Assembly: GCA_011390465.1 (NCBI GenBank)
Contig: JAABSH010000005.1
Coordinates: 57,129-121,128, forward strand
Direction: 5' to 3'
Length of the DNA stretch: 64,000 bases
From: Desulfobacteraceae bacterium
GTDB taxonomy: Bacteria > Desulfobacterota > Desulfobacteria > Desulfobacterales > Desulfosalsimonadaceae
Positions 17,096 through 64,000 of the stretch are shown here, piece after piece. Position 1 is the stretch's first letter. Each line of letters begins with the position of its first letter. The notes under the pieces were generated by a model. It searched no databases, was not told where the DNA came from, and saw only the letters and a list, made by a program, of their open reading frames with translations. Made by a program: the position numbers and the translations under genes.

Positions 17096-17947
17096 TTATG
17101 AAAGGATATGTCGAATCTCTTGTTTGTGCGCCTGATAAATTTGAATATCTTTCGGGTTCCATGGCCGGAACGCTTTATCAATGTATTTTAACGCACCTCT
17201 GGTGAGCATGGGCAGGGATTGAAACACGAATTTCAGGTAAGGTCCCCAATTCTTGCGCTTAAGCAGGATTCCGTCTTTTAGGAGAAAATAAAATTGCATT
17301 CCATAGACCGAAATGAGTGTTGCCGGCATCCAGATAAAAATAAGGGCCAGGGTTAACAGCCAGGTCCGTTTTTCCAGGGCCGCAAACACATCAAAGCACA
17401 CGGCCTGGTGCTCCAGTTCTTCAAGCGCGTGCCAGCGGGTGAAGTCGATTGCGGCATTGGACTGATCTCCCGCCCAGAACCTGTTGTTAACGATAAAATC
17501 CCGGCTGATGGCGGATGTAAAATGCTCAAACGCCGCCGGCATGGCCAGTTCCCACGCCGGCGGAGAAATTTTGCGCATTTTCCCGACAAAAAATTTCTGA
17601 AACCGCTCAAACGGTCGAATCGCCGGATAGCCGCACTTTTTCAACAGCTCATTGCATCGCAGGTGCATCAGCGTATGGCGCCCTTCCTGCCGAATCAGAG
17701 CGTCCATCTCCCGGATCAGCTTTGGCTCGGTAATATTATCCGCGTATTTTCGGACAATATCGATGACCGTTCTTTCCGAGACGGGCACCACAATGGAGAG
17801 GGCGTTCATAAACTGCGAGGTGAAGGGATCTTTCAACCAGTATTTATCGACGCCTGAAAAGTCGAACTCCGGCCTTCGGGGCTCGATGGCGATATTCTCC
17901 GGGGTTGAGCTGTGTGCCGTTTTCGTCTGTGGTATTCTTTTTTTCAT
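17096..17947 (-). CDS. PF10118-like predicted metal-dependent hydrolase
   Basis: HxxxE/ExxxH-rich helical protein: ALSIVVPVSERTVIDIVR, LIRQEGRHTLMHLRCNELLKKCGY, WHALEELEHQAVCFDVF. Start chosen at MKKRIPQTK. Confidence 0.75.
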   Translation of the reverse strand: MKKRIPQTKTAHSSTPENIAIEPRRPEFDFSGVDKYWLKDPFTSQFMNALSIVVPVSERTVIDIVRKYADNITEPKLIREMDALIRQEGRHTLMHLRCNELLKKCGYPAIRPFERFQKFFVGKMRKISPPAWELAMPAAFEHFTSAISRDFIVNNRFWAGDQSNAAIDFTRWHALEELEHQAVCFDVFAALEKRTWLLTLALIFIWMPATLISVYGMQFYFLLKDGILLKRKNWGPYLKFVFQSLPMLTRGALKYIDKAFRPWNPKDIQIYQAHKQEIRHILS

Positions 17948-18003
17948 TTTCCGTACCTTATGTGAATGAAAAGAAACGAATCGATTGATTGATTTAAAAA
18001 TCG

Positions 18004-19056
18004 TTAATCTTGTTGGCCCGCCCTGAACTCCAAAGCCCGCGGGTCCATTATCTTGCGCCAAACCGGCGGAATAAACGCCAGCACAATCATCCCCGCATAT
18101 CCGGTGGGCAACTGGGGCACGCCGTCGTAATGACGAAGCAACTGATAACGATGCCCCGGTTTGTAGTGATGGTCCGAATGGCGCTGTATATTAAACAGAA
18201 AATGGTTGCTCAGCCAGTTGGAAGAATTCCAGGAGTGCCGGGGTCGGACCGGTTCGTATGTCCCCGGTGCAATCTCTTTGCGCAGCAGCCCGTAATGCAC
18301 CACATAGTTTGCGGTTTCGACAAGGATAATAGCAATAAAACTCTGTGCAAGAAGGAACAAAACCCCCATCTTTCCAAATATCACGGCAAAGAAAACAATA
18401 TAAGCCGCCTGAAATAAAAGCCCCAAAATCATTGGATTGCGCAGACTCCAGACCGGTTTGTTCTGCCTTTTCATCCGGTCGGCTTCAAATTGCCAGGCAT
18501 TTTTGAACCCACCCAGAATGGTACGCGGCAAAAACGCATACAGCGATTCTCCTAAACGTGCAGTCGCCGGATCTTCAAACGTGGCCACCCGCCGGTGGTG
18601 CCCGACAACATGTTCCAACCCGAAATGCATGTATAATACGCTGCACAGAATGACTTTTGAAAGCGCGTGTTCGAATTTATGGTTCACCCGATGCGCCAGT
18701 TCATGGGCCGCGCTAAGCCCCAGGATATCGGATGAGATCCCTATGGAAAGAATAATGCCAACTGTTTCCAGAATCCGCAAATCACCATAGCTGACCACAT
18801 ACGCACCCCAGAAAACAACCGCAATCTGGACCGGTGCGCACAAAAGCGTCAGGATTTTATACCGGCTGTCCGATTCAAGTTCCTTTTCCGTTTCTTTGGC
18901 CGGGTTTCGCGTATCTTTGCCGATAACCGTATCTAAAACCGGTCCGATGCCGAAAACCAGAAACGGTGTGATAAAGGTATAAATCCCACCGAGCCAGTAG
19001 CCGATAATCACGCTGACCGGGACCAGATATACCATTGAAAACGCTAAAACATTCAT
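18004..19056 (-). CDS. AlkB-type alkane 1-monooxygenase / membrane diiron hydroxylase homologue
   Basis: HELAHRVNH, HVVGHHRRVATFEDPATARLGESLYAFLPR, HYGLLRKEI...RHSWNSSNWLSNHFLFNIQRHSDHHYKPGHRYQLL: the conserved histidine boxes of AlkB. Start chosen at MNVLAFSM. Confidence 0.88.
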   Translation of the reverse strand: MNVLAFSMVYLVPVSVIIGYWLGGIYTFITPFLVFGIGPVLDTVIGKDTRNPAKETEKELESDSRYKILTLLCAPVQIAVVFWGAYVVSYGDLRILETVGIILSIGISSDILGLSAAHELAHRVNHKFEHALSKVILCSVLYMHFGLEHVVGHHRRVATFEDPATARLGESLYAFLPRTILGGFKNAWQFEADRMKRQNKPVWSLRNPMILGLLFQAAYIVFFAVIFGKMGVLFLLAQSFIAIILVETANYVVHYGLLRKEIAPGTYEPVRPRHSWNSSNWLSNHFLFNIQRHSDHHYKPGHRYQLLRHYDGVPQLPTGYAGMIVLAFIPPVWRKIMDPRALEFRAGQQD

Positions 19057-19075
19057 TGTGGATTCATTCTCCGTT

Positions 19076-21217
19076 TTATCCCCGCCGCCAGGCATGATAC
19101 TTACCCAGCCAGTTCAGGATTTTTTCCGGGGCATGGGCTTTTTTCCAGACACCGGCCGCATACTTGTTGGCTTCCGACATAGTGGGATAGGTGTGGATAG
19201 TGCCCAGAATTTTGTTGAGCCCCAGCCCATGCTTCATGGCGAACACATATTCCGCCAGGATATCACCGGCATGCGCGCCGACAATGGTAACGCCCAGAAT
19301 TTTGTCCGTGCCGGGTTTGGTCAGCACTTTTATGAACCCGTAGTCTTCGGAATCGGCAATGGCCCGGTCGAGATCATTAATTTCATAACGGGTGAGCTCA
19401 AACGCGATGTCTTTTTCTTTGGCTTCGGTTTCATTTAAGCCCACCCGGGCCACTTCCGGATCGGTATACGTGGCCCACGGGATGGCGCTGTAATCGACTC
19501 TAAATGACTTCAACCCGCCGAAAAGCGCGTTGACCGACGCATACCAGGCCTGATGCCCGGCCACATGGGTGAATTGATAAGGACCCACCACATCTCCTGC
19601 GCAATAAATCGTGGGGACGCTGGTCTGGAGAAATTCATTGGCAGAAATCGTTTTCCGGGGCGTCAATTCAATGCCCAGTTCCTCCAGGCCGAATCCGCTG
19701 ATATTGGCGGCCCGTCCCACGGCCACTAAAATTTCGTCAAACGGGATGCTGACATCCTGGCCGTTGTGATCACAGACCAGCGTTTTTTCGCCGGTTTCAA
19801 TTTTCACTGCTTTGGCCCGATGCCCGGTCAACACGCGTACCCCTTCGCTTTCCAGTTTTTCCTGGATCAGCGCTGCCACCTCCGCATCCTCCCGACCCAT
19901 AATCTGGGGCATCATCTCCACCTGGGTGACCGCCGATCCCAGCCGGCCGAAGGTCTGGGTCAGTTCGCATCCGATGGGACCGCCGCCGAGCACCACCAGG
20001 CGTTTCGGCTGGTCTTTAATCTCCCAGACATTATCCGATGTCAGATAGGTCACGTTTTCCAGGCCGGGAATGGGCGGCACAAAAGGCCGGGCACCACTTG
20101 CGATCACGATTTTTTTGGTGGTCAGGATTCTGCCGTTGACCTCCACCGTATACGGGGAAGTGATTCTGGCCGCTCCGGAAATGCATTCCACGCCAAGTTG
20201 TGAATACCGCTCCACGGAATCATGGGGTTCGATTTTTGCAATCACCTGATGCACCCGCTCCATGACCCGGGCAAAATTAAAATCAATAGTTCCGCTGTCA
20301 AACCCGAACTCTTTGGCCCGCCGCACATAGGACAAAATTTTGGCGGACCGGATCAGGGCCTTGCTGGGGACGCACCCGGTATTTAGGCAGTCGCCCCCCA
20401 TTTTACGCTTTTCAATCATAGCGACTTTGGCCCGCACGGTGGCCGCGATATAGGACGTCACCAGGCCGGCGGCTCCGGCGCCGATCACCACCAGATTGTA
20501 ATCGAATTTCTTCGGTTTCGGGTATTTTGCCAGAACTTTTTTGGATTGGATTTTGGCGGTCACTTTTTTGGCAATTAACGGAAAAATTCCCAGCAGGGCA
20601 AAGGAAAAAATCAGATCCGGCGACAGAATGCCGGATAAGGAATCAATCTGCGCCAGCTGCGTGCCGGCATTGACATACACCGCCGTGCCGGCCAGCATGC
20701 CCACCTGGCTGACAAGATAAAACACCCCGGTCCGGATGGGGGTAAGCCCCATCACCAGATTAATCACAAAAAACGGAAAAATCGGGACCAGCCGCAGGGT
20801 GAACAGATAAAAGGCCCCGTCTTTCTCTATGCCTTTATTAACGGCTTTCAGGCGGTCGCCAAAACTCTTCTGGACAGTATCCCGCAGCAAAAAACGGGCC
20901 ACCAGAAAGGCGCAGGTCGCGCCGATGGTGCTGGCAAAAGAGACCAGGACCAGGCCGAACCAGAAACCGAAAATCGCGCCCCCGGCAAGGGTCATGACCG
21001 CAGCGCCGGGAAGCGACAAGGCCGCCACGAGAATATATATTGCCATGTAAACGGCCATGCTCATCAGCTGATGGCCGGCGTAAAAGGATTCCAGGGCCGC
21101 CTGCCGGGATTTAAGATAATCAAAGGACAAGTATTGCCCGAGATCAAAGGCAAAAAAAACAGCCACCAGGGCGGCGATGAGCAGCACGATCAGAATTCTG
21201 GGAAGATGTGATCTCAT
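19076..21217 (-). CDS. Fusion protein: N-terminal TVP38/TMEM64 (VTT) membrane domain + FAD pyridine nucleotide-disulfide reductase (MerA/Lpd-like)
   Basis: 713 aa; N-term LSLPGAAVMTLAGGAIFGFWFGLVLVSFASTIGATCAFLVAR; C-term VVIGAGAAGLVTSYIAA, GGDCLNTGCVPSKALIRSA (redox disulfide), CAGDVVGPYQFTHVA. Confidence 0.92.
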   Translation of the reverse strand: MRSHLPRILIVLLIAALVAVFFAFDLGQYLSFDYLKSRQAALESFYAGHQLMSMAVYMAIYILVAALSLPGAAVMTLAGGAIFGFWFGLVLVSFASTIGATCAFLVARFLLRDTVQKSFGDRLKAVNKGIEKDGAFYLFTLRLVPIFPFFVINLVMGLTPIRTGVFYLVSQVGMLAGTAVYVNAGTQLAQIDSLSGILSPDLIFSFALLGIFPLIAKKVTAKIQSKKVLAKYPKPKKFDYNLVVIGAGAAGLVTSYIAATVRAKVAMIEKRKMGGDCLNTGCVPSKALIRSAKILSYVRRAKEFGFDSGTIDFNFARVMERVHQVIAKIEPHDSVERYSQLGVECISGAARITSPYTVEVNGRILTTKKIVIASGARPFVPPIPGLENVTYLTSDNVWEIKDQPKRLVVLGGGPIGCELTQTFGRLGSAVTQVEMMPQIMGREDAEVAALIQEKLESEGVRVLTGHRAKAVKIETGEKTLVCDHNGQDVSIPFDEILVAVGRAANISGFGLEELGIELTPRKTISANEFLQTSVPTIYCAGDVVGPYQFTHVAGHQAWYASVNALFGGLKSFRVDYSAIPWATYTDPEVARVGLNETEAKEKDIAFELTRYEINDLDRAIADSEDYGFIKVLTKPGTDKILGVTIVGAHAGDILAEYVFAMKHGLGLNKILGTIHTYPTMSEANKYAAGVWKKAHAPEKILNWLGKYHAWRRG

Positions 21218-32522: not shown

Positions 32523-35500
32523 ATGAAAAAAACAAATTTTATTTTATTTGTTATCATTTCTATAATGACACTTGCAGGAATATCGTATGCGTACACTTCT
32601 ACTTACTTTTTAAAAATCAATCCACAAGATATAACTGTTTCCAAAAACGCAGGCACAGGGTCCTTGGACGTACTACGTTCATATACGAAACATGATATCA
32701 CTGGAACTAATAGAGCATTGGAATGGAGTGCAAATGTAAATCAAGGTAGTGACTGGCTTTCTATCACGTCAGGAGCTACCGGACATTATGATGGAACTGT
32801 TTTTTTTGAATTCACCAATAATCTCACCTATAAAACACGAAAAGGTGTAATTCGAGTAAAGAATGTTGGCAAATCAGAATATTTTACTATCACTCAAATA
32901 GGATTGTCTTACCTTTCCGTCAGCCCACTTACAAGTGATTTAACGTATAACTCAGGCACGACTACTTTTGATGTCGCTAACACGGGCAGCGATACAATGC
33001 TTTGGGTAGCATCTGTAACTTCTGGTGCTGATTGGCTTTCTATCACCTCCGGAGATAGCGGAAGTAATGCAGGTGCTGTAAAATGCGCTTTGAGCCATAA
33101 TAGTTTCGTGTCTCCACGCACTGGAAAAATTCAGATATCGGCGCAGAATGCCGGGGGCAGTCCAATAGAAGTGACCGTTTGCCAAGCCGGCCATCCTCCT
33201 AACGTATTTCCCTCAAGGAAAGATGTTGCAAAAGAAGCAGGCACGACCACTTTTAATGTATCTGCGCGTGGAAACCCAAACATGCCCTGGACGGCAGAGG
33301 TTATATCAGGCAGCAATTGGCTTTCCATAGTGGCAGGAACAAGTGGAACTCATGGTGAAACTATCACCTGCGCATTTACCAGTAATGAAATTTTCCCAAC
33401 CTCACGCTCTGGAATGATTCGTGTAATTGCAGAGGGGGCTCCCGACAGTCCCGTTGATGTGACCGTTACTCAATCTGGAAATCCGCCAGTACTATCTGTG
33501 ACCCCTTCCCGCAGAGATATTGCAGTAGAAGCAGGCTCGACTACTTTTAACGTATCCAAGTTTACTGGTATCGGACCTATGCCCTGGACAGCGGAGGTAA
33601 CCACCAGCAATTCATGGCTTTCGATTTCTTCCGGGGCCAGCGGCACGGATAGCGGGACTATTAAATGCAAATTTACAACCAATACGGGCACATCCACTCG
33701 CTATGGTACCATCCGCATAACAGCAGCAGGTGCAACCGGCTCCCCCATGAATGTGACGGTGAAGCAGGCGTTTTATACCGATGTTAAAGGCGATGTTAAT
33801 GGAGATGGAGACCTTAATTTGGCAGATACTATTTTTGCACTACAAATTTCTGCCAATATTGATCCGGCAGGTAACGTGCACTATGAAGCGGATGTGAATA
33901 GCAATGATAAGATTGGCATTGAAGAAGCGATTTTTTCGTTAGAGCATCTTGCCAGAATATTGAGACCAGCGCCTACGGCCACCGCAGCTTCAAGGATCAC
34001 CTCCACCACATTCCAGGCCAACTGGGATAGTGTGTCCTGGGCCACAGGCTACTGCTTAGATGTATCAACGAGCAGCGGATTTGGCAGTTTTGTGTGCGAA
34101 TATAACGATAAGGATGTGGGTAACACCACAGTCCAGATCATCAGTGACCTGAAATCCGGCACACAATATTATTACCGAGTTCGGGCGTATAACGCCAAAG
34201 GAACCAGCTGTAAATCCAATGTGGTTAATGTTACCCCCGGAGGTAGTGGTTATATCCCCGACTTCACCAACTCCCTTGGCATGGACTTTGTCTACATCGA
34301 TCCCGGCATTTTCATGATGGGGTCTCCAGAGGATGAGCCGTGCCGGGGAAGCGATGAAACCCTGCACCAAGTGATTCTCACTCAAGGGTTCTATATACAG
34401 ACCACCGAAGTAACTCAGGGCCAGTGGAAGGCGGTGATGGGCAGCAACCCTTCTACTTCTTTCCAAAATTTCGGAGACGACTGCCCGGTGGAGCAAGTGT
34501 CCTGGAATGATGTACAGGCATTTATTACCGCCCTCAATGCTATAGGCGGAAGGACCTACCGGCTACCCACGGAAGCCGAGTGGGAATACGCGGCCCGGGC
34601 CGGGACAAGCACCGCCTTTGCCAGCGGCGAGTTTACGAATCCTAATGGTGATTGTGAGATTGGCCCCAATTTGGACTCTATAGGCTGGTATTATAATAAC
34701 AGCGGTTGGAGTATCCGTCCAGTGGCCCAAAAACAGGCCAATGCCTGGGGGTTGTATGACATGCACGGCAATGTCTATGAATGGTGCCACGACTGGTATA
34801 GTGATTATCCTTCCGAATCAGTGACTGATCCTGAAGGTCCGTCATTTGGCGACTACCGTGTCATGCGCGGTGGCTGCTATGTTTGCGACGCCTGGTACTG
34901 TCGGTCCGCCTCTCGCTCCCGCTTCAAACCGGGCCGCACGTCCGAAATCACCGGGTTCCGGCTTGTCTCTCCCCAAGTCAGTTCCGCGCCATACGCACCA
35001 GCGGCCATCACAGCCTCCTATGTAACCTCTACTGGATTCCAAGCAAACTGGAACATCGTGTCCGGGGCCACGGGCTATCGCCTGGATGTGTCCACAGGCA
35101 GTGGGTTCAGTAGTTTTGTGCCGGGGTATAATAACCGGGATGTGGGCAGTGTTACCAGCAAGACAATCAGCGGATTGAGTTCGAACACCCCTTATTATTA
35201 CCGGGTGCGGGCGTATAATGCGGGAGGAACCAGCAGAAATTCCAATGTGAGGAGTGTGACCACCACCGGCGGAGGCGGTTCGAACGTCACCAACTCCTTG
35301 GGTATGGACTTTGTTTATATTGAACCCGGCACTTTCATGATGGGAAGTCCGGAAGATGAGCTGGGCCGGGATAGCAGAGAAACCCGGCATGAGGTGACCC
35401 TGACCCGGGGGTATTATATGCAGACCACGGAAGTGACCCAGGGCCAGTGGGAGGCGGTGATGGGGTCCAATCCCTCGTATTTTTCCAATTGCGGGGACAA

Positions 35501-36008
35501 TTGTCCGGTGGAGATGGTTTCCTGGAATGATGTGCAGGCTTTTATCACGGCCCTCAATGCCATGGGTATAGGCACCTATCGCCTGCCCACAGAAGCCGAG
35601 TGGGAATATTCTTGCCGGGCCGGGACAGCCACCGCCTTTGCCAACGGCGGGATTACGAAACCTGATTATGAATGCGGCCATGATCCCAACCTGAATGCCA
35701 TGGGCTGGCATTGCGGGAATTCGGACTCTAAAACCCATCCTGTTGCCCAAAAACAGGCCAATGCCTGGGGGTTGTATGACATGCACGGCAATGTCTGGGA
35801 ATGGTGCCAGGATTGGTATGGGAATTATCCGTCTGATTCAATAGTTGATCCTGAAGGACCATCATTTGGCGACCTCCGTGTCCGTCGCGGCGGCTGCTGG
35901 CGCCACTACGCCAGGAGCTGCCGGTCCGCCTACCGGAGCAGCGGCTCGCCCGACGGCCGGGACTACGTCCTCGGGTTCCGGCTTGTTGCTTCCCAGGTCA
36001 GCCAGTAA
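32523..36008 (+). CDS. Secreted multidomain protein: signal peptide, 4x BACON-like, dockerin-like module, 2x (Fn3 + formylglycine-generating-enzyme/C-type-lectin-fold domain)
   Basis: 1161 aa; repeated WLSITSG..G...G.I.V.A.......VTV.Q; DVNGDGDLNLADTIFALQISAN...DVNSNDKIGIEEAIFSLEHL; two copies of NSLGMDFVYI.PG.FMMGSPEDE...TTEVTQGQW.AVMGSNPS...GFRLV. Confidence 0.88.
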   Translation: MKKTNFILFVIISIMTLAGISYAYTSTYFLKINPQDITVSKNAGTGSLDVLRSYTKHDITGTNRALEWSANVNQGSDWLSITSGATGHYDGTVFFEFTNNLTYKTRKGVIRVKNVGKSEYFTITQIGLSYLSVSPLTSDLTYNSGTTTFDVANTGSDTMLWVASVTSGADWLSITSGDSGSNAGAVKCALSHNSFVSPRTGKIQISAQNAGGSPIEVTVCQAGHPPNVFPSRKDVAKEAGTTTFNVSARGNPNMPWTAEVISGSNWLSIVAGTSGTHGETITCAFTSNEIFPTSRSGMIRVIAEGAPDSPVDVTVTQSGNPPVLSVTPSRRDIAVEAGSTTFNVSKFTGIGPMPWTAEVTTSNSWLSISSGASGTDSGTIKCKFTTNTGTSTRYGTIRITAAGATGSPMNVTVKQAFYTDVKGDVNGDGDLNLADTIFALQISANIDPAGNVHYEADVNSNDKIGIEEAIFSLEHLARILRPAPTATAASRITSTTFQANWDSVSWATGYCLDVSTSSGFGSFVCEYNDKDVGNTTVQIISDLKSGTQYYYRVRAYNAKGTSCKSNVVNVTPGGSGYIPDFTNSLGMDFVYIDPGIFMMGSPEDEPCRGSDETLHQVILTQGFYIQTTEVTQGQWKAVMGSNPSTSFQNFGDDCPVEQVSWNDVQAFITALNAIGGRTYRLPTEAEWEYAARAGTSTAFASGEFTNPNGDCEIGPNLDSIGWYYNNSGWSIRPVAQKQANAWGLYDMHGNVYEWCHDWYSDYPSESVTDPEGPSFGDYRVMRGGCYVCDAWYCRSASRSRFKPGRTSEITGFRLVSPQVSSAPYAPAAITASYVTSTGFQANWNIVSGATGYRLDVSTGSGFSSFVPGYNNRDVGSVTSKTISGLSSNTPYYYRVRAYNAGGTSRNSNVRSVTTTGGGGSNVTNSLGMDFVYIEPGTFMMGSPEDELGRDSRETRHEVTLTRGYYMQTTEVTQGQWEAVMGSNPSYFSNCGDNCPVEMVSWNDVQAFITALNAMGIGTYRLPTEAEWEYSCRAGTATAFANGGITKPDYECGHDPNLNAMGWHCGNSDSKTHPVAQKQANAWGLYDMHGNVWEWCQDWYGNYPSDSIVDPEGPSFGDLRVRRGGCWRHYARSCRSAYRSSGSPDGRDYVLGFRLVASQVSQ
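34868..34965 (+). other. DGR variable-region-like C-terminus of first FGE domain
   Basis: RGGCYVCDAWYCRSASRSRFKPGRTSEITGFRLV; aligns without gaps to 35888-35985, differing at positions where FGE-type DGR targets vary. Confidence 0.4.
35888..35985 (+). other. DGR variable-region-like C-terminus of second FGE domain
   Basis: RGGCWRHYARSCRSAYRSSGSPDGRDYVLGFRLV; variable codons CGC CAC TAC AGC TAC AGC AGC GGC GGC GAC TAC GTC are all NNC, as expected from AAC template codons. Confidence 0.45.
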
Positions 36009-61067: not shown

Positions 61068-62246
61068 CTACGCATATCCTTTTTCCGCATGCTTTTCACT
61101 GATAGCGGCCGCCAGGGCATCAATGGCCGCATAATCCGCGGCTCCGGGCACGCCTTTGCAAAGCACGGGTTCCAAAACCGCCACCTTGAGGTTGGGTATC
61201 ATGCCGGCCAAAGTTTCCACGGTTTTGCCGCCCCACCCATAAGATCCCACAATGGACAAAAAATTAACCTGAGGTTTGAGGGCATTGGCCAGAAACGCGG
61301 CATAGGCAGCATAGGGGTGGGGCCCTGCCAGCACGGTGGGGGTTCCCACCACAATGGTGGCGGCATCCACAAGGGCCATGGCCAGTTTGCCGATATCCGT
61401 AACCGCCAGGTTAAACAACTCCACCCGGACCCCTTTTTCCACCAGGGCCCCTGCCAGATGATTCACCATCAGTTTGGTGCTTTCATGCATGGACACATAG
61501 GGGATCACCACGATATTTTTTGGCGGACTGTTGACCCAGTCATTGTAGGCATCCAGAATAAAAGCGGGGTTCTGATAAATCGAACCGTGGCTGGGCGCGA
61601 TCATGTCAACAGGATAGGCAGCCAGTTTCTCCAGATTTTTTCGGATAATGGTTCGAAACGGCATCATGATTTCGGCAAAATACCGTTTGGCCGCCTCATA
61701 CACCCGGCCTTCGTCCGTAACAAAAAGGTCCGAGGCAGCGATATGGGACCCGAAAAAATCGCAGGAAAACAGCATCCGGTCCTCTTCCAGATACGCGCAC
61801 ATGGTTTCCGGCCAATGAACCCACGGCGTGTGGATGCATTTTAATGTTTTATCCCCCAGATCAATGGCTGCCCCGTCTTCCACGACCTGAAAGGCCGATT
61901 CCGGAAGGGACATCATGTCCATGAGAAGTCCCCTGGCCTTGGCAGTGGTCACGATTCTGGCCTCCGGGTATTTTTCCAGCACCCTGGGAAGGGTGCCGGA
62001 ATGGTCCTGCTCCGCGTGAAGGGACACGATATAGTCGATTTTCGGGACATCTGCGAGCTGGTCCATCAAAGTGTCCGCCATGGGCGGATCCACGGTGTCG
62101 ATCAATGCCACCTTTTCCCGGCCTTCCACAAGATAGGCATTGTAGGTGGTGCCGTCCGGCAGGGGAATAAGGGAATCAAACAGGCGCCGGTCCCAGTCCA
62201 CAGCCCCCAGCCAATAAATCTGGTCCTTGATTTTTCGCATCTTCAT
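61068..62246 (-). CDS. A-type flavoprotein (flavodiiron protein, FprA-like)
   Basis: SLHAEQDHSGTLPRVLEKYP diiron motif; flavodoxin-like C-term VGTPTVLAGPHPYAAYAAFLANAL. Start at MKMRKIKDQIYWLG. Confidence 0.93.
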   Translation of the reverse strand: MKMRKIKDQIYWLGAVDWDRRLFDSLIPLPDGTTYNAYLVEGREKVALIDTVDPPMADTLMDQLADVPKIDYIVSLHAEQDHSGTLPRVLEKYPEARIVTTAKARGLLMDMMSLPESAFQVVEDGAAIDLGDKTLKCIHTPWVHWPETMCAYLEEDRMLFSCDFFGSHIAASDLFVTDEGRVYEAAKRYFAEIMMPFRTIIRKNLEKLAAYPVDMIAPSHGSIYQNPAFILDAYNDWVNSPPKNIVVIPYVSMHESTKLMVNHLAGALVEKGVRVELFNLAVTDIGKLAMALVDAATIVVGTPTVLAGPHPYAAYAAFLANALKPQVNFLSIVGSYGWGGKTVETLAGMIPNLKVAVLEPVLCKGVPGAADYAAIDALAAAISEKHAEKGYA

Positions 62247-62338
62247 AACCCTTTGCCTCCTTTTTCCAATTCCAACCAAAACCCCCGTTTTGGAAACAGA
62301 TTCCGCGACGGGGGAAAAGGTTTTTCTTACTTCAGCGG

Positions 62339-64000
62339 CTATTTTCCGGCCATCATGGCCGCGATATCGTCTTCCACCGTGCCAATGGGTTTGATATCGA
62401 ATTTGTCCACCAGCACATTCAGCACGGTGGGGGACACAAACGCCGGCAGGGTCGGGCCCAGGCGGATGCCTTTCACCCCGAGAAACAACAGGGCCAGCAG
62501 CACAGCCACGGCTTTCTGCTCGTACCAGGCCACATCAAAGGAAATGGGCAGTTCGTTGATATCGGAGAGCCCGAACACGTCTTTGAGTTTCAGGGCAATG
62601 ACCGCCAGGGAATAGCAGTCATTGCACTGGCCCGCGTCCAGTACCCGGGGAATGCCGCCGATATCGCCCAGATTCAGTTTGTTGTATCGGTATTTGGCGC
62701 AGCCCGCGGTCAGGATTACCGTATCTTTGGGCAGTTTTTCCGCCACTTCCGTGTAATAGCTTCTGGATTTCTGGCGGCCGTCGCACCCGGCCATGACAAT
62801 AAACCGTTTGATAGCCCCGGATTTCACGGCATCCACCACCTTGTCCGCTAACGCCAGCACCTGATTTCGGGCAAATCCGCCCACAATGGTGCCGGTTTCC
62901 AGTTCTTCCGGCGGCTGGCAGGTTTTGGCCTGCTTTACGAGCGCGGAAAAATCCTTGACCCCGCCGGCCGGCCGGTCCGCAATATGTGTTGCGCCGTCAT
63001 AGCCGACCACGCCGGTGGTGTAAAGACGATCCAGATAGGTGTTGTCTTTTTTAAGGGGCACCAGGCAGTTGGTGGTCAAAAGGACCGGGCCGTTAAAGGA
63101 CTCAAATTCCTTGTTCTGGTGCCACCAGGAGCCGCCGTAATTGCCCACAAAGTGATCATATTTTTTAAAAGCCGGATAATAATTGGCCGGCAGCATTTCG
63201 CCGTGGGTGTATACATCAACCCCCGTGCCTTCAGTCTGTTTGAGCAATTCTGCCATGTCTTTCAGGTCATGGCCGGAGATCAGGATGCCGGGGTTTTTGC
63301 CCACGCCAATGTTTACTTCGCTGATTTCCGGATGGCCGTAAGTGCTGGTGTTGGCTTCATCCAGAAGCGCCATGGTGGTGACGGCGCATTCCCCGCATTT
63401 CATCACCAGTCCCACCATTTCATCCACGGACAGGGCTTTGGTGGTGGAGGCCAGGGCTTCCATCATGAGATCATTGATCTCGTCTTTCTGATATCCCAGG
63501 ATGGCGGCATGGTCCGCATAGGCGGCAACGCCTTTCAGGCCGATGACCAAAAGTTCCCGGAGGGACCGGACATCTTCGTTTTCCGTTGCCAGAATGCCCA
63601 CACTTTTGGCTTTTTCCGCAAATCCCGCAGCACCACCGGTCCAGGTGGCAGGGTCCGGCAGAGTGCCGTCAAAATCCTGGCCTTTTTTTTCTTTATACAC
63701 GGCAAGAAAGGTTGATTTAAGCTGATCCCGGCGGCTTAAGGCGTCCTGGATCATGGCGGTAAAGCGATCGTCATCCCAGTTGGCATTGGTGATGGTGGCA
63801 AACAGCCCCTGGAGGACAAACAGGGCATGATCCCGGTTGGGCGCGCCCAGTTCTTTGAGTTTTTCCGCGTACACCGCAATCCCTTTCAGGGCAAAAATCA
63901 ACAGATCCTGAAGGTTGGCGGTTTCTTCGGGTTTTCCGCACACGCCTTTGACGGTGCAGCCGGTGTTTTTAGCGGTTTCCTGACATTGAAAACAGAACAT
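62339..64000 (-). CDS. hcp: Hybrid cluster protein / hydroxylamine reductase
   Basis: [27 protein letters not shown]-terminal Cys motif; [28 protein letters not shown]; start codon lies exactly at window end. Confidence 0.97.

Follow-up and report, generated by a model that had tools for sequence, protein, structure and literature searches.

An AlkB-family membrane protein with valine in place of the iron-site glutamate in sulfate-reducing Desulfobacterales

Background

What would an AlkB-family protein, a protein of O2-dependent type, be doing in the genome of an anaerobe? The question is raised by a 64,000-nucleotide stretch of a Desulfobacteraceae genome (hereafter the window; assembly GCA_011390465.1, contig JAABSH010000005.1, positions 57,129 to 121,128), in which an AlkB-family gene lies on the minus strand. 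In the structures of AlkB the di-iron site consists of nine histidines and one glutamate (PMC10113152). This glutamate (Glu271 of 8f6t) ligates Fe2, approaches the substrate methyl to 3.2 A and has been put forward as the proton donor to the leaving oxygen (PMC10113152). The paper describing the equivalent E281 is more guarded on its role, the side chain being poorly resolved (PMC10110569). The NYxEHYG motif is considered AlkB-specific, and its glutamate is retained in every rhodococcal type surveyed (PMC11854999). Here we show that the window protein keeps all nine histidines and has valine at the place of the glutamate, and we discuss what such a protein might do.

Results

An uninterrupted open frame spans 18004-19095 on the minus strand. 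Relatives start at Met14, which corresponds to position 19056, so the alkB gene is taken as 18004-19056, exactly as the initial annotation had placed it; residues are numbered from the in-frame upstream Met at 19095. The protein matches PF00487 with 100.6 bits, and none of the NCBIfam models matched it at E 0.01. In the PDB search AlkB was the only match: the Fontimonas thermophila AlkBG structure 8f6t was hit over the full length with E 1.9e-86 and FtAlkB (8sbb) with E 2.5e-74; identity in the fold alignment is about 39-40%. The AlphaFold2 model (pLDDT 92) matches the AlkB fold, whose six transmembrane helices set it apart from other FADS members, with Foldseek TM scores of 0.94 to 8f6t and 0.91 to 8sbb, and the tunnel residues L141 and L315 are kept. 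According to family searches, on which all our statements about the whole host genome rest, this is the only gene of the FADS (desaturase) superfamily in the host; no other FADS-family desaturase was found. Contamination or assembly error is ruled out, for the valine type recurs in ten sequences whose genomes belong to the order of the host and were assembled separately.

Is the host really an anaerobe? Its genome (3.93 Mb, 100%-complete) carries dsrA (618 bits), no haem-copper oxidase was found in it, and the named relatives closest to it, at 71-77% identity, are Desulfobacteraceae, Desulfococcaceae and other Desulfobacterales MAGs. On the same contig, about 65 kb from alkB and outside the window, cydA, cydB, a rubredoxin gene at C75:6979-7149 and a flavodiiron protein gene lie on one strand (C75:5679-10008, locus L064 of genome G000) in an apparent O2-defence island, where cydB was identified by eye after cydA. 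The presence of dsrA and PFOR, the absence of haem-copper oxidase, and the genes for cydAB, rubredoxin and flavodiiron protein mark the host as an anaerobic sulfate reducer of the Desulfobacterales equipped to meet oxygen, not an aerobe. The PFOR, Hcp and A-type flavoprotein that the initial annotation listed from the window are indeed there, the last being of flavodiiron type, and its central observation, a protein of the O2-dependent AlkB family in an anaerobe, is borne out. The Hcp (hydroxylamine reductase family; 62339-64000, minus strand, 839 bits) is complete with 553 aa and runs up to the window edge, and a flavodiiron-like gene lies close to it at 61068-62279.

Then is the iron site that of an ordinary AlkB? 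The nine Fe-binding histidines are retained in all Val-type sequences (HExxH, EHxxGHH, HYG and RHxDHH motifs), and the window protein carries HELAH, EHVVGHH, HYGLLR and QRHSDHH. Its third motif, however, reads NYVVHYG instead of NYxEHYG: the codon GTG at 18298..18300 (minus strand) encodes Val266, which replaces the Fe2-contacting glutamate (Glu271 of 8f6t, E281 of 8sbb). The earlier statement that all AlkB histidine boxes are present is therefore right for the nine histidines but wrong at the third motif; the context quoted with it began at HYGLLR, directly past the altered residue. In a tree of 47 sequences, position 266 is Val in 8, Glu in 37 and Gln in 2, the last being XylM-type. Two further genomes also have Val (G685 and G686, of which G686 possibly duplicates a named entry of the tree). 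Two clade-specific residues, D/N123 and H298, were considered as substitute iron ligands. This idea is not supported, because position 123 is Asn in three of the eight Val-type sequences and H298, two residues from the equivalent of L315 of 8sbb, is directed away from the cavity by helix periodicity.

In the same tree, which was computed without the motif column, the Val-type sequences group together in a single clade (support 100/100) that lies within the Glu-type Desulfobacterota sequences. Judged from these sequences, glutamate gave way to valine once and the change is fixed in the clade. Pairwise dN/dS within the clade is 0.11-0.24, which rules out decay; together with the intact frame it also rules out a pseudogene. 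A recent transfer from aerobes is ruled out by the nesting of the gene in a supported Desulfobacterota clade, while an older transfer of AlkB into the phylum is possible. Thus the concern that the gene could be a recent import with a degrading active site does not apply; it belongs to an old clade under purifying selection.

The substitution of the glutamate does not stand alone. Seven of the 70 columns that are invariant in 24 Glu-type Desulfobacterota sequences are altered in all eight Val-type ones: G123 to D/N, I127L, N128S, W158F, V262A/T, E266V and L303I. Each of them is no more than 8 residues in sequence from a ligand histidine, which holds for 39 of the 70 columns (p 0.013). As I127L, W158F and V262A also occur as states in aerobic AlkBs, the distinctive set comprises four changes. 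L303, the equivalent of L318 in 8sbb, a position at which Trp abolishes activity (PMC10110569), is Ile in the Val-type sequences; the equivalent of L274 is Val in six of the eight. V or A occupies the chain-length gate (W62 of 8sbb), and a small residue there goes with chains of at least 12 carbons in characterised AlkBs (PMC10110569).

How widespread is the family among these bacteria? AlkB relatives were found in 23 of 292 Desulfobacterales genomes, in 14 of 36 genomes of the family and in 11 of 395 genomes of a phylum sample, a patchy distribution with a single copy in nearly all carriers. Several copies in Desulfosudis (G128; L016/L040, L021/L045/L046) have a frameshifted C-terminus or split frames, which suggests that loss of AlkB is under way in that lineage.

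Does the protein receive its electrons from rubredoxin, as AlkB does? AlkG docks on six arginines of FtAlkB (PMC10113152). Of eight aerobic AlkBs compared, seven carry Lys, Arg or His at nearly all of these positions, and the Acinetobacter sequence is a partial exception. In the Desulfobacterota AlkBs, positions 143, 148, 169 and 287 are mostly Asn, Pro/Val, Val/Ala and Pro, respectively, position 284 is variable, and only position 215 is usually still basic. Most of the docking patch, four of the six Arg positions, is thus missing from all of them. No rubredoxin gene was detected by motif search within 8 kb of alkB in any Desulfobacterota copy examined, whereas several aerobic plasmid copies of alkB do have one nearby. 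The window protein lacks these four of the six positions and has no linked or fused rubredoxin. The initial annotation had noticed no rubredoxin gene; this holds for the window but not for the genome, which has two, both outside the window and unlinked to alkB, the second on contig 34. Electrons probably come from a donor other than AlkG-type rubredoxin, or through docking of another kind.

Both departures bear on how the protein should be named. It is full-length homologous to FtAlkB and shares its fold and nine histidines, but differs from 8f6t and 8sbb in the valine, in the residues at L274 and L318, in the lost docking arginines and missing rubredoxin neighbour, and in its anaerobic host. 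It is 46-60% identical to the Glu-type Desulfobacterota AlkBs of the same clade, which likewise have neither docking patch nor adjacent rubredoxin; these, however, retain NYxEHYG, and their genomes lack the PF10118 gene discussed below. XylM xylene monooxygenase, of the same superfamily, has also changed the glutamate position, yet it is only about 26% identical and branches far outside AlkB, and its Gln is polar while Val is not. Since the glutamate motif and the rubredoxin docking features both fail, we class the window protein as a variant derived from AlkB rather than as a true AlkB alkane monooxygenase.

Are there partners in the neighbourhood? A gene on the minus strand at 17096..17950, with its start near 17950 and 53 bp downstream of alkB, encodes a PF10118 protein, a family labelled "metal-dependent hydrolase" (184.5 bits, above the Pfam gathering cut-off of 33.2). 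E59, E89xxH92, E142 and E178xxH181 are retained in it and in seven relatives, an E, ExxH, E, ExxH set, and in the predicted model (pLDDT 87) this ligand pattern falls on helices 42-68, 76-105, 131-154 and 166-193. In the Foldseek search aldehyde-deformylating oxygenase and ribonucleotide reductase R2 lead, with probability 1.00 and E of only about 0.05, and nearly all of the 50 matches listed are of the ferritin-like di-iron class, so the match is to a class. The AurF profile is matched weakly (E 0.077). Contrary to the family label, the predicted fold suggests a ferritin-like di-iron protein, probably a carboxylate-type oxidase rather than a hydrolase. Its subfamily stands apart, joined by a very long stem of 4.5 changes per column, and no characterised PF10118 member was found in the literature searched.

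PF10118 is present in seven of the 292 genomes of the order. Counting over the order survey and the family survey of 36 genomes, it occurs in eight of nine genomes with Val-type AlkB (and in a further two of the same genus, G681 and G683, whose AlkBs are partial) and in none of 18 with Glu-type AlkB (Fisher 4e-6). The Val clade is one lineage, however, so that few independent events lie behind this: one joint gain and perhaps a joint absence in genus g5. The exception is G241, which has Val-type AlkB and no PF10118. The two genes adjoin in four genomes, namely G000, G231 and G284, which represent three genera, and G681, whose contig holds only the C-terminus of AlkB. Outside these four genomes PF10118 has unrelated surroundings, and within the clade the trees of PF10118 and of AlkB are too poorly resolved for their congruence to be read. 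Two observations on PF10118 elsewhere may be recorded. In Acinetobacter pTol5 a ferredoxin/P450/FAD-reductase cluster precedes the PF10118 gene. G284 carries two PF10118 genes, and the second, which is divergent (57% identity with that of the window), lies beside a 1010-aa glycyl radical enzyme (L088, 3152-6181 and 6775-7650, plus strand).

On the other side, 19 bp upstream of alkB, a minus-strand gene at 19076..21217 encodes a VTT (TVP38/DedA-like) membrane domain fused to a MerA/lipoamide-dehydrogenase-like flavoprotein (PF09335, PF07992, PF02852). The flavoprotein part is complete and has a CxxxxC pair, and the fusion is a possible redox partner of AlkB; the order VTT-MerA then alkB is shared with G248 only. 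A conserved operon around alkB was rejected, as only PF10118 (four genomes) and VTT-MerA (two) recur. A role as partner of anaerobic alkane activation was rejected too: for the three long PFL-like genes of the host, MasD is a far poorer match than glycerol/diol dehydratases, PFL2 and choline lyase, and none of these glycyl-radical enzymes resembles alkylsuccinate synthase. Farther away in the window, at 32523-36008 on the plus strand, inspection by eye points to a single 1161-aa secreted protein that carries BACON-like repeats and two segments resembling formylglycine-generating enzyme.

Discussion

What, then, might the protein do? The initial annotation had left microaerobic use, O2 detoxification and an altered reaction side by side. 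The change from Glu to Val together with the clustered active-site substitutions favours the last. The reading we prefer, tentatively and at somewhat under an even chance, is a modified O2-dependent long-chain alkyl oxidase of a sulfate reducer, with changed chemistry or specificity and with the PF10118 protein as partner, used when oxygen is transiently present. A subset of sulfate-reducing Desulfobacterales would have kept an AlkB-descended, nine-histidine di-iron membrane enzyme, which presumably holds iron and most likely still binds O2. Its substrate would be a long alkyl or acyl chain, of C12 upwards, oxidised when the cells meet traces of O2, with electrons from a donor not of the AlkG type or from a rubredoxin that docks differently. 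With the glutamate beside Fe2 and the substrate methyl turned into valine and the surrounding shell remodelled, the reaction has probably changed, be it to another substrate or position, to a desaturase-like outcome, or to partly uncoupled O2 reduction. The PF10118 protein, adjacent or co-occurring, would probably act in the same pathway. A bolder version is a rather doubtful proposition: that the two proteins form an undescribed two-enzyme O2-dependent system, in which a carboxylate-free nine-histidine centre works on trace O2 with a non-AlkG-type donor and performs new long-alkyl chemistry.

Need the chemistry have changed at all? It may be unaltered, for XylM works with Gln, and the glutamate is thus dispensable in the superfamily. 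On this ground the protein could be an ordinary terminal alkane hydroxylase in which nine histidines suffice, making 1-alkanols for hydrocarbon scavenging under O2; the kept fold and histidines and a gate residue like that of long-chain AlkBs agree with it. We regard it as unlikely, though it stands best among the alternatives, given that the glutamate is invariant in the other 37 non-XylM sequences, that several changes cluster at the site of substrate oxidation, and that the AlkG docking patch is gone.

The precedent of SCD1, in which a water occupies the place of AlkB's iron-site glutamate (PMC10110569), brings in a desaturase or hydroxylase of membrane acyl chains, whose product the PF10118 protein would act on. 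The membrane location and a genome with no other FADS-family desaturase suit such a lipid modifier. It is nevertheless improbable: the fold and tunnel are AlkB-like, the structure search gave no desaturase similarity, and no recurring lipid genes were seen beside alkB in the neighbourhoods compared.

Placed after it, and improbable as well, is an oxidase-like or uncoupled enzyme that clears O2 near the membrane alongside cytochrome bd and the flavodiiron protein. Without the proposed proton donor, O2 activation could become uncoupled from hydroxylation, as may be argued from PMC10113152, and the anaerobic host does keep other O2-removing systems. However, it already has three dedicated systems of O2 reduction or defence, and the tunnel residues that are kept would be needless in a pure oxidase. 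A link to cytochrome bd had to be dropped, since cydA occurs in 20 of 23 AlkB-carrying genomes of the order against 187 of 269 others, which is not significant (p 0.09). Finally, a catalytically inactive remnant, or a protein that has taken on a role other than that of an oxygenase, which the loss of so invariant a residue might suggest, is very improbable, as a dead enzyme would not need the nine histidines that are invariant at 66-77% identity under dN/dS of 0.11-0.24.

Conclusions

No earlier account of the Val-type clade or of PF10118 function was found in the literature searched. For the annotation of PF10118 as a hydrolase, the predicted di-iron fold suggests that it be revisited. For sulfate reducers, counts of "alkB" by motif or name, taken as potential for alkane hydroxylation, may mislead. 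For the AlkB family as a whole, the mechanism is unsettled and the sole carboxylate of the iron site is central to it. A natural lineage that has lost this glutamate, kept its nine histidines and remained under selection is a ready-made experiment on the role of the glutamate.
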